64,000 nt of DNA from an uncultured Clostridia bacterium (lineage in GTDB: Bacteria > Bacillota > Clostridia > Christensenellales > UBA1750). Location of the stretch: positions 1 to 64,000 of the forward strand of contig CAJFMX010000004.1 of NCBI GenBank assembly GCA_904393115.1. Reading direction: 5' to 3'. Positions 13,079-15,716 of the stretch are shown piece by piece. Below the pieces are notes generated by a model. The model was not told the origin of the DNA. It saw only the letters and a program-made list of their open reading frames with translations, and did not search any database. A program made the translations under genes and the position numbers. Each line of letters opens with the position of its first letter. The first letter of the stretch is position 1.

Positions 13079-14266
13079 TCAGGCCCGGAATACGCGCGTT
13101 GCGCGCTCGAGGATTCCCTGCATATAGGCGATGAGCAGGCCGTAATTGATGAACGGCACGCCCTGGCGTTCGGCCTCGCGCAGGCGGTAGAGCACCTCGC
13201 GCTCGTTGAGCATGCACCCGCCGCAGTGGATGACGAGCCGGTAGGGCGTCAGGTCCTGCGGGAAGGCGGCGCCGGAGCAGGTCTTGATGCGGATGTCCTT
13301 GCCGCTGTGGGCGCGCAGCCACTTGGGGATCTTGACGGTGCCGATGTCCTCGCACTGGCGGTGGTGCGTGCAGCCCTCGGCGATGAGCACGGTGTCCCCG
13401 TCCCGCAGGGACTCCACCGCGGGGATGGAGCGCAGCGCGGCGTCCAGATACCCCTTGTAGCGCGCCATGAGGATGGAGAAGGAGGTCAGCGCCACGTCCT
13501 GCGGCGTATCCTGCGCGACCTTGGCAAAGACCTGGCTGTCGGTGACGACCATGCGCGGCTTCTCCTGGCAGGCGGCAAGGGCCTGCGGCAGCTCCGTCTC
13601 CCGGACGGTGAGCGACAGGGCGCCGGCCTCCAGGATGTCGCGGATGGTCTGCTGCTGGGGCAGGATCAGGCGGCCCTTGGGCGCGGCCTTGTCGATGGGC
13701 ACCACGAGGATCACCAGTTCCCCCGGCTGGAGCAGGTCCGCGATGAGGCGGCGGCCGCTCTCACCCGGGTTCAGGTGCGCGATGCGCTCCTTGAGGGCGT
13801 CGATCCCCCGCTTTGTGCGCGCGGAGACGCACACGGCGCGCTCTGCGAGGGATTCCGGCAGGGGGCAGTCGCCCGCGTCGCACTTGTTCCAGACCACGAG
13901 GCAGGGGATTTCCATGCCGCGGATGCGCTCGAGCAGGGCGCGGTCCACCTCGGCCAGGCCCTCGGCCGCGTCCACGACCAGCAGGGCGATGTCCGTGCGG
14001 CGCAGCTCCTCCAGCGCCTTGTCCATGCGCTTTTGGCCGAGCTCCCCCTCGTCGTCCAGGCCGGGGGTGTCCACCAGCACGACCGGGCCCAGGGGCAGCA
14101 GCTCCATCGCCTTTTTGACGGGGTCGGTCGTTGTGCCCTTGGTCTCGGAGACGACGGCCAGGTCCTGGCCGGTCAGGGCGTTGATGAGGCTGGACTTGCC
14201 CGCGTTGCGCCGGCCGAAGATGCCGATGCGCGTGCGGTTTGCAGAAGGCGTTGCATTCAAGCTCAT
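13079..14266 (-). CDS. hydF: [FeFe]-hydrogenase H-cluster maturation GTPase HydF
   Basis: 395 residues, family length. HydF is the scaffold that assembles the 2Fe subcluster and loads it into the hydrogenase. The N-terminal GTPase domain shows GRRNAGKSS (G1), the switch region [17 protein letters not shown] (G3) and NKCD (G4). The C-terminal cluster-binding domain has CTHHRQC and HCGGCML, the expected CxH...CxxC ligands. GGAGGG lies 8 bases before the ATG. The stop is followed at once by a terminator, so hydF ends the operon. hydG and the hydrogenase itself are outside the window. Confidence 0.96.
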
Positions 14267-14286: not shown

Positions 14287-15327
14287 TCATTCCATGGGGT
14301 AGTCGCCGCGGTCCACGACGACCTCGTACCCGGCGGCCGCCATGCGCGCGCGCAGGGCGGCGAGCCCCTCGGCGGCCTCGTCCCCGTCGGAGCGCTTGTT
14401 GTCGTAGAGCAGGTATTTTTTGCGGGTGTCCTTGGGCGAGAGGTTCGGCATGACCACGTTGCAGCCGGCGTTCATGCCCCGCTCCCGCCCGTCGTCCGCG
14501 AGGGTGCCCAGCGCCGTCGTCGCCGGCAGCAGGGCGCGCGGCAGCAGCAGCCGCACGATGGCCAGGCACAGGAGCGTCCGCTCCGCGCTGCCGGCGGGCT
14601 CGTCCCGGAAGGGCGTGTCGCGGTGGGGCAGGAACGGGCCGATGCCCACCATCTGCGGCTGGAGGTCCTGCAGCAGGCGGAAGTCCTGCACGAGGCAGCC
14701 GCTCGTCTGCCCGGGCGAGCCGACCATGAAGCCCGCGCCGGTCTGGAAGCCGATCGCCTTGAGGTCGCGCAGGCAGCGCAGGCGGTTTTCCAGGGAGAGC
14801 TCCGGCGGGTGCAGCCGGGCGTAGTGGTCCGGGTCCGCCGTCTCGTGCCGGAGGAGGTAGCGGTTTGCGCCGGCGGCAAAGAGCCGCTCGTAGCTGGCCC
14901 GGCTGCGCTCGCCGATGGAGAGCGTGATGGCGCAGTCCGGGAACGAGGCGCGGATGGCGGAGACGATGTCCGCCATTCTGTCGTCCGTGAAGTACGGGTC
15001 CTCCCCGCCCTGGAGCACGAAGGTGCGGAAGCCCAGTTCGTACCCGGCCTGGCAGCAGGCGAGGATCTGCGCCTTGTCCAGGCGGTAGCGCTGCGCGCAG
15101 GGGTTGCTGCGCCGGATGCCGCAGTAGCGGCAGTCGTTCTTGCAGAAGTTGGTGAACTCGATCAGGCCGCGGATGAAGACGCGGCGGCCGTAGGTGCGGT
15201 CGCGCACGGCGCGGGCGCGGGCAAAGAGGTAGTCGCGGTCCGCCGGCGCGCTCTCCTCCAGCAGCGCGCGGAACTCCGCATCCGTCAGGTCCCGCGTCCG
15301 CTCGAGCCGGTCAATGTACGCCTTCAT
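14287..15327 (-). CDS. hydE: [FeFe]-hydrogenase H-cluster radical SAM maturase HydE
   Basis: 346 residues. A radical SAM enzyme needed for the H-cluster dithiolate/iron subcluster. The SAM-cluster motif is CKNDCRYCGI (CxxxCxxC). Other landmarks are RGLIEFTNFCKN before it, FVLQGGEDPYFTD (GGE motif), SIGERS and FMVGSPGQT, ending in NVVMPNLSP and KYLLYDNK, all as in HydE rather than BioB. A GGGGAG site precedes the ATG, which overlaps the stop of the short upstream gene as ATGA. HydF begins 20 bases downstream. Confidence 0.95.
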   Translation of the reverse strand: MKAYIDRLERTRDLTDAEFRALLEESAPADRDYLFARARAVRDRTYGRRVFIRGLIEFTNFCKNDCRYCGIRRSNPCAQRYRLDKAQILACCQAGYELGFRTFVLQGGEDPYFTDDRMADIVSAIRASFPDCAITLSIGERSRASYERLFAAGANRYLLRHETADPDHYARLHPPELSLENRLRCLRDLKAIGFQTGAGFMVGSPGQTSGCLVQDFRLLQDLQPQMVGIGPFLPHRDTPFRDEPAGSAERTLLCLAIVRLLLPRALLPATTALGTLADDGRERGMNAGCNVVMPNLSPKDTRKKYLLYDNKRSDGDEAAEGLAALRARMAAAGYEVVVDRGDYPME

Positions 15328-15482
15328 GCCTGCTTCTCCCCGTTCCGGCGGGAAAAGACCGTCCGCGCGCTGACGCCCGGGAGGCTGCCGGGCTTCCCGG
15401 CGAGGGCGGAGATCTCGTCCGCCGCGGCGTTGAGGGCCACGCTGACGAGCGCTGCGCAGGATTCCGGTTCCCGATTTTCCAT
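15324..15482 (-). CDS. half-length TM1266-like protein (iron-only hydrogenase system regulator family)
   Basis: 52 residues. The segment VSVALNAAADEISALAGKPGSLPGVSARTVFS resembles the C-terminal half of the roughly 80-residue TM1266 family (ACT/NikR-like fold, usually found beside hydE and hydF). The N-terminal half (the usual ...YGxxIVGRMG... portion) is absent in this and neighbouring frames. The stop overlaps hydE as ATGA, and a GGAAAGGAAG site lies 10 bases before the ATG, so translation and coupling to hydE look real. It may be a decayed regulator kept for coupling, or a genuine short form. Confidence 0.6.
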   Translation of the reverse strand: MENREPESCAALVSVALNAAADEISALAGKPGSLPGVSARTVFSRRNGEKQA

Positions 15483-15529: not shown

Positions 15530-15565
15530 AAAACGCAAAACGCGCGCGCCGGTGCGGCGCGCGCG
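15530..15565 (-). terminator. terminator-like hairpin in the hydE operon leader
   Basis: On the minus strand CGCGCGCGCCG, loop CAC, CGGCGCGCGCG is followed by TTTTGCGTTTT. It lies about 120 bases downstream of a strong promoter and about 50 bases before the first gene, so it can work as an attenuator or as the end of a small RNA. Confidence 0.75.
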
Positions 15566-15681
15566 GGACATTGGCTCCCCCGTGATCGCACCTTCCCCCG
15601 CTGGCCGCACCATTGGGGTCAGATCCCACGGATTTTCCCTTCTCGGATTCGCCCGGTCCGTAAAGCGGGTCCGGGTTCCTC
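15530..15681 (-). ncRNA. structured leader or small RNA upstream of the hydE operon
   Basis: The segment runs from just after a strong promoter to an intrinsic terminator, about 150 bases without a convincing gene. A CCCGG/CCGGG stem lies near its 5' end. A downstream GGTGCGG (complement at 15605-15611) is exactly complementary to CCGCACC inside the terminator hairpin and could form an antiterminator. No known riboswitch class was recognised: SAM, cobalamin, TPP, glycine, FMN and T-box cores were looked for by eye. Regulation of the maturation genes by attenuation is inference. Confidence 0.4.
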
Positions 15682-15687
15682 TCCCCT

Positions 15688-15716
15688 ACTATATCACCGG
15701 TTTTTCCGCGCGTCAA
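15688..15716 (-). promoter_or_regulatory. strong sigma-A promoter of the hydE-hydF operon leader
   Basis: TTGACG and TATAGT on the minus strand are separated by exactly 17 bases. The promoter begins directly after the T-tract of the terminator of the upstream fusion gene. Confidence 0.85.

Follow-up and report, generated by a model that had tools for sequence, protein, structure and literature searches.

A conserved RNA element before H-cluster genes of Clostridia, with a predicted attenuator in the leader of a hydE-hydF operon

The window analysed here, a 64,000-nucleotide stretch of DNA from an uncultured Clostridia bacterium, carries a leader and an operon of hydrogenase maturation genes, all on the minus strand. 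Behind the leader, the operon starts with a truncated TM1266-family reading frame of 52 amino acids (15324..15482, TIGR03959), followed by hydE, encoding a radical SAM maturase (14287..15327, TIGR03956), and hydF, encoding the maturation GTPase (13079..14266, TIGR03918). The TM1266 frame (15482-15324) is missing the domain's N-terminal half and does not qualify for the family, as it covers only positions 42-75 of the 76 of the NCBIfam model TIGR03959 and scores 28.5 bits, under the cut-off of 60.8. A full-length TM1266 gene precedes hydG on another contig, C18, of the same genome (locus L197, 524-778). Upstream of the operon, 18297-15766 (-) encodes an 843-aa protein combining a xylose-isomerase-like TIM barrel (PF01261) with an AMP-binding acyl ligase (PF00501).

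The promoter of the leader is of the sigma-70 type, TTGACG-N17-TATAGT with a TG before the -10 (15688..15716), identified by a consensus scan only. With its start placed from the -10 position, the leader RNA extends to the end of a terminator hairpin (15541..15682), about 120 nt of it lying before the terminator. We found that, as expected of an attenuator, an intrinsic terminator lies between promoter and first gene: a hairpin of 11 GC pairs with the loop CAC (15541..15565, -23.5 kcal/mol), directly followed, by sequence scan, by the U-rich tract TTTTGCGTTTT (15530..15540). Further upstream, the segment GGTGCGG (15605..15611) is the exact complement of CCGCACC (15557-15551) within the terminator. 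The promoter, the perfect 11-pair hairpin with its following tract and this complementarity had been pointed out by an earlier sequence-only reading, and all of them are present as it described them.

Promoter- and terminator-like matches are weak on their own, because a shuffled 10-kb region also yields some (3 promoter-like sites in the real region versus 0.8 in shuffles, and 13 terminator-like sites versus 5.8). Furthermore, the folding energy of the leader is unexceptional (z -1.6; 21 of 200 shuffles fold equally well). It is the comparison with relatives, not the folding energy, that raises this leader above chance, because its minimum-energy fold already contains the element conserved in the relatives, enclosed by an outer CCGUG/CACGG stem, and because covariance models place the element there. 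This window copy of the CUGA...GAAGG motif (15585..15628), matched by both of our models (R1 and R2) and backed by covariation in relatives, reads AUCU-GA-CCCC-AA-UGGU-GCG-GCCA-GC-GGGG-GA-AGGU. GGTGCGG lies in its apical hairpin, and its 3′ tail GAAGGUGCG (15587..15595) would be the antiterminator segment, judged by homology from tail-terminator pairing across copies and from folding of the window leader.

A DNA similarity search among 11 genomes of the family found no relatives of the leader, and homologous leaders were instead gathered through HydE loci and through TM1266 loci, TM1266 being present in 240 of 391 genomes of the class. The consensus of these leaders is, in order, CUGA, a P2 helix of 3-5 bp, two purines, the P3 hairpin, two bases, the second strand of P2 and (G/A)AAGG; in the TM1266 upstream regions the two bases after P3 are mostly GA or GC and a terminator usually comes next. 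The core, a lone irregular hairpin of about 32-45 nt, showed neither a junction nor a pseudoknot, and strict conservation of CUGA, AAG and the purines of the internal loops stands out amid varying helices. A descriptor of this shape, used in place of a simple hairpin scan, matches 61 of 148 TM1266 upstream regions versus 1 of 150 base-shuffled ones. Within single leaders the element can occur in tandem (L127, L137, L128, L070), and the leader of L070 shows, by eye, up to four CUGA...AAGG-like units. A short helix flanked by a G-A / G-A tandem recalls the kink-turn, which consists of a three-base bulge beside tandem G-A pairs; this candidate was dropped, as the three-base bulge is missing and most copies in both alignments described below have symmetric internal loops of the 2x2 type.

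The comparison of homologous leaders that the sequence-only reading had proposed as a check recovers the same element with strong covariation. In an alignment of 25 reference sequences (A2), 90.9% of cells pair versus 70.2% after shuffling, and the covariation score is 0.619 versus 0.187, a value that none of 500 shuffles reaches; sliding the structure by 1-3 columns lowers the score to 0.17 or less. A larger alignment of 86 rows from model R1 (A3) scores 0.626 versus 0.192 shuffled (0/500), and its count of pairs changed on both sides is not above that of shuffles, 84 of 500 reaching it. Both alignments had been chosen with pairing in view, and we therefore repeated the test on a sample drawn by the anchors CUGA and (G/A)AAGG only. 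In this sample 16 of 71 sequences have a completely paired P2, versus a mean of 3.8 and a maximum of 9 on permutation, and 28 of 71 have a completely paired P3, versus 9.2 (0/1000 permutations in both cases). The element thus shows the conserved structure with compensatory changes that is expected of a riboswitch.

Next to structure, gene context is conserved. We searched 293 genomes of the class with model R2 (E <= 0.01) under strict filters, which missed the genome of the window itself, and found 82 places in 75 genomes. The next gene was classified for 80 of these, leaving out a second copy in G195 and the one in G422: TM1266 follows at 39 places, HydG at 23, HydE at 5, AspA at 2, HydF at 1 and an ABC substrate-binding protein at 2, with none at the remaining 8. 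An H-cluster maturation gene accordingly stands directly behind the element in 70 of the 80 classified places. Restricting the count to the 62 places without a match to a training row, which may still be relatives of such rows, gives TM1266 27, HydG 18, HydE 5, AspA 2, HydF 0, ABC 2 and none 8. One of the eight without a next gene, in G435, is cut by the end of its locus and lies, by coordinates, about 12 nt before HydG. AspA fits the regulon because, according to PMC11736057, aspA is found near hyd operons and can provide the nitrogen atom in the bridging ligand.

The genome of the window holds three copies of the element, namely the window copy and two on contig C18, one between TM1266 and HydG (L197 803-843, E 9.9e-5) and a weak one before the full-length TM1266 (L197 356-407, E 0.11). 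Searching this genome with R2 returned the window copy as the sole match at E <= 1, with an E-value (2.1e-4) that is not independent since this copy belonged to the training set of R2. In the relative whose HydE is closest (L004 in G008, 82% identity), hydE is directly preceded by neither a TM1266 match nor the element, which means that the leader is lost or moved between close relatives.

We examined how the element could act on these genes. A terminator lies within 200 nt of 87 of 148 distinct copies versus 3 of 148 shuffled ones, and the tail of a copy forms a more stable duplex with its own terminator (-12.3 kcal/mol) than with permuted ones (-9.4 kcal/mol, sd 0.24; 0/200 permutations). 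Moreover, a terminator stands behind 23 of 28 TM1266-type matches versus 1 of 13 HydG matches that lie within 20 nt of the gene. Seventeen of 23 HydG matches are within 20 nt of the gene and overlap or touch the Shine-Dalgarno sequence. Judged by sequence, copies before TM1266 are usually predicted attenuators in which the element tail can base-pair with the terminator's 5′ arm.

Both across copies and in the window, an antiterminator pairing that excludes the terminator was found by computation. For the pairing partner the window supports the sequence-only reading in part: GGTGCGG can pair with the terminator as proposed, and the antiterminator shared across the family is the element 3′ tail GAAGGUGCG, GGTGCGG being apical. 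In the full-length leader, the fold with motif and terminator has -72.4 kcal/mol, versus -59.3 for the tail antiterminator and -59.9 for the GGTGCGG pairing. When the transcript ends at the terminator loop, the GGTGCGG pairing is the minimum (-53.9 kcal/mol) and the tail pairing reaches -50.6 kcal/mol. As the full-length leader favours the terminator over the antiterminator by 12-13 kcal/mol, read-through would have to be kinetic. The suggestion that hydrogenase maturation is under a riboswitch- or protein-controlled attenuator whose class is not recognised gains support from the covariation, the tail-paired terminators, the H-cluster regulon and the lack of an Rfam match; we hold with high confidence that H-cluster genes are regulated by a conserved RNA family and that its copy in this window works by attenuation.

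Since formation of the element would favour termination before TM1266 and hide the ribosome site before HydG, it can be read as an OFF switch. Under this model, a bound factor would hold the CUGA-P2-P3 helix and lock the GAAGG tail within it, the terminator would form, and transcription would stop short of TM1266-hydE-hydF. Without the factor, the terminator's 5′ arm would instead be paired with the tail, and in the window perhaps with GGTGCGG too, so that the polymerase would read on into the genes. Before hydG, an occupied element abutting the ribosome-binding site would block translation. The factor would most likely be TM1266, sensing an H-cluster intermediate or a related metal species and repressing its own operon and other H-cluster genes. 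Overall, the element is widely conserved and probably serves as an on/off switch before the genes by which gut-type anaerobes make, or perhaps import, the H-cluster.

TM1266 is an 80-residue sensor domain resembling NikR and devoid of a DNA-binding part. Its predicted structure (pLDDT 96.9) matches first 2nzc, the structure of TM1266, and next NikR regulatory domains, with E 2.3e-5 and weaker. As expected for autoregulation, the element precedes the gene of this putative binder, which is the commonest gene behind it (39 of 80 places). In sensitive searches at E <= 0.001, we found the element in 13 of 40 genomes with both HydG and TM1266, a set picked to contain no training locus from a G-numbered genome, versus 3 of 40 with HydG and no TM1266 match, taken from 53 such genomes. 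Fisher p is 0.010 for 13 versus 3 and 0.003 for 13 versus 2, the two being those beside HydG, in a test that ignores genome relatedness and with a model whose training copies came from the neighbourhood of TM1266, hydE and hydG, largely in TM1266 genomes, and which may favour such genomes. The element also occurs in TM1266-positive genomes without a HydG match (10). The other 27 of the 40 genomes with HydG and TM1266 gave no match at E <= 0.001 with these models, which are short and, in many loci, do not pick up a variant with wider spacing (e.g. L147, L303-L305, L307).

Because the element tracks TM1266 and this NikR-like domain comes without a DNA-binding part, we read TM1266 as an RNA binder. 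To our knowledge, no RNA-binding property has been described for it. Among the points against this reading, the TM1266 gene of the window itself is a fragment, the full-length copy being on C18, and the three positive genomes without TM1266 include two, G138 and G311 (97% and 93% complete), with a good copy before HydG, the third (G238) having its copy before no known gene. These exceptions imply that TM1266 is not strictly needed, was lost or was missed. On balance we give TM1266 as the putative binder an even chance, and place the whole chain, from attenuation and translation control of H-cluster genes to TM1266 as candidate binder, at the same midpoint between belief and doubt.

The main rival to TM1266 binding is a true riboswitch, in which the element itself would bind a small molecule such as an H-cluster precursor, a species containing iron, cyanide or carbonyl, or some metabolite related to these, with TM1266 just one of the regulated genes, perhaps as a carrier or co-sensor. 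The strict conservation of CUGA, of the purine internal loops and of AAG among varying helices would suit this explanation, as would tandem copies in one leader (L137, L128, L127), the fact that a single element governs genes for biosynthesis and for transport, much like riboswitches of the vitamin type, and the two genomes that carry the element without a TM1266 match. Set against this are the small core, a single irregular hairpin where neither junction nor pseudoknot was seen, and the association with TM1266, which holds where HydG is absent and TM1266 present; we regard direct ligand binding as a serious possibility that falls somewhat short of even.

Being short, double-stranded, interrupted by purine internal loops and often present in tandem, the element would also suit binding by another protein, for instance one of the maturases or an RNA-binding antiterminator of general function, or could mark a site of RNA processing. 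No other protein was seen to track the element, albeit without a genome-by-genome search for one, and the complementarity of tail and terminator argues for a switch rather than a processing site, which makes this explanation improbable. That the leader is ordinary and unregulated, its terminator incidental and its likeness to other leaders due to chance, would agree with its unexceptional folding energy and with a second terminator-like inverted repeat seen by eye 5′ of the promoter. It is contradicted by the covariation, the descriptor matches, the gene associations and the tail-terminator pairing, and we consider it very improbable.

Transcription attenuators of known kinds include PyrR, ribosomal-protein leaders and SAM and other riboswitches. 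The element resembles riboswitch- and protein-controlled attenuators in being a 5′ leader element that sets an antiterminator against an intrinsic terminator, with translation-type copies at the Shine-Dalgarno sequence; it differs from them in that it matches no Rfam 15 family. At the gathering threshold, Rfam 15 gave 0 matches in the window and 20 related loci (L005, L006, L010, L012-L015 and 13 more), and at E <= 5 only two weak sub-threshold sRNA matches in the window leader. Among conserved RNAs, the Moco/tungsten-cofactor motif (PMC2408646) likewise groups cofactor biosynthesis and transport genes; this motif belongs to another cofactor, and Rfam scans of the window and related loci gave no Moco match. 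On the protein side, the TM1266 family (PF21699, TIGR03959; PDB 2nzc), whose genes stand directly behind the element, shares the metal-sensing fold of NikR by prediction and differs from NikR in lacking a DNA-binding domain. Databases label it only as a putative hydrogenase system regulator.

A word search of the available portions of PMC11109978, PMC8632094, PMC6429828, PMC2864571, PMC7266159, PMC11477304, PMC2965389 and PMC3766115 found no hydrogenase RNA element, nor did the literature searched as a whole, whose scope stopped short of most subscription papers, supplements, preprints and a 2017 list of 224 motifs. As far as searched, the family is therefore not described in Rfam or in these papers, attenuators and riboswitch-like leaders as a kind being already known, and the same holds for RNA-level regulation of [FeFe]-hydrogenase cofactor assembly. 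The element before hydE, hydF, hydG, aspA and TM1266 defines a regulon that biohydrogen work could build on, and it offers a testable role for TM1266, an orphan family with a structure released in 2006.

We also examined TM1266 in hydrogenase genomes that lack maturases. Among 47 genomes with TM1266 and no HydG match (threshold 1e-60), HydA is present in 46 and HydE (at 1e-40) in 20, the latter including G205, the sole one without HydA, which leaves 27 genomes with HydA and TM1266 and neither HydG nor HydE. Such cases have been noted before: passages of PMC9431212 report that typical hydG was not found in five of eight acetogens, and PMC3226654 mentions hydrogenase-bearing species without maturases and gives no explanation.

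Among the loci collected, TM1266 is followed by a transporter gene in 11 of 13 entries that stem from such HydA-bearing genomes with neither HydE nor HydG (8 ABC substrate-binding proteins and 3 small membrane proteins, besides 1 other gene and 1 contig edge). In HydG-positive genomes this is so for 6 of 100 entries, 84 having HydE, HydG or HydF instead. The contrast (p 1.5e-9) includes related genomes, its entries being genome-gene pairs with some genomes present twice, its transporter references derived from these same loci and G501 counted as HydG-positive without a search. These transporters suggest import of a cofactor precursor, and hydrogenase-bearing species without maturases would be explained if they imported a building block of the cofactor and this uptake were controlled in the same way. 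Extending this, the element and TM1266 might control the whole H-cluster economy, making as well as importing, with bacteria that have lost HydE and HydG taking up a ready-made diiron precursor (or another building block) that their neighbours release, through the ABC or small membrane transporters behind TM1266, and TM1266 acting as intracellular sensor of this compound and as RNA-binding repressor; we offer this tentatively and think it rather unlikely in full. If true, the transporter link would account for maturase-less hydrogenase bearers and make cofactor cross-feeding testable.

One of the small membrane proteins behind TM1266, of 171 aa (G179, G232), looked by eye like an ECF S-component; this candidate was rejected, as Pfam, run on the G179 copy, and NCBIfam, run on both with the G232 copy cut to 160 aa, gave no match, and it is labelled a small membrane protein only. 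ABC operons of substrate-binding protein, permease and ATPase stand behind TM1266 in L303-L307 and L311 and directly behind the element in L230 and L320, in genomes that have no HydG match except G302 (L320). Finally, in genome G262 (L312 2821-1766, minus strand) a TM1266 domain (PF21699, 4.6e-19) is fused to the C-terminus of an ABC-transporter ATPase. This fusion adjoins a FecCD permease and, by eye, a NifH-like protein, and lies behind the element and a stand-alone TM1266.
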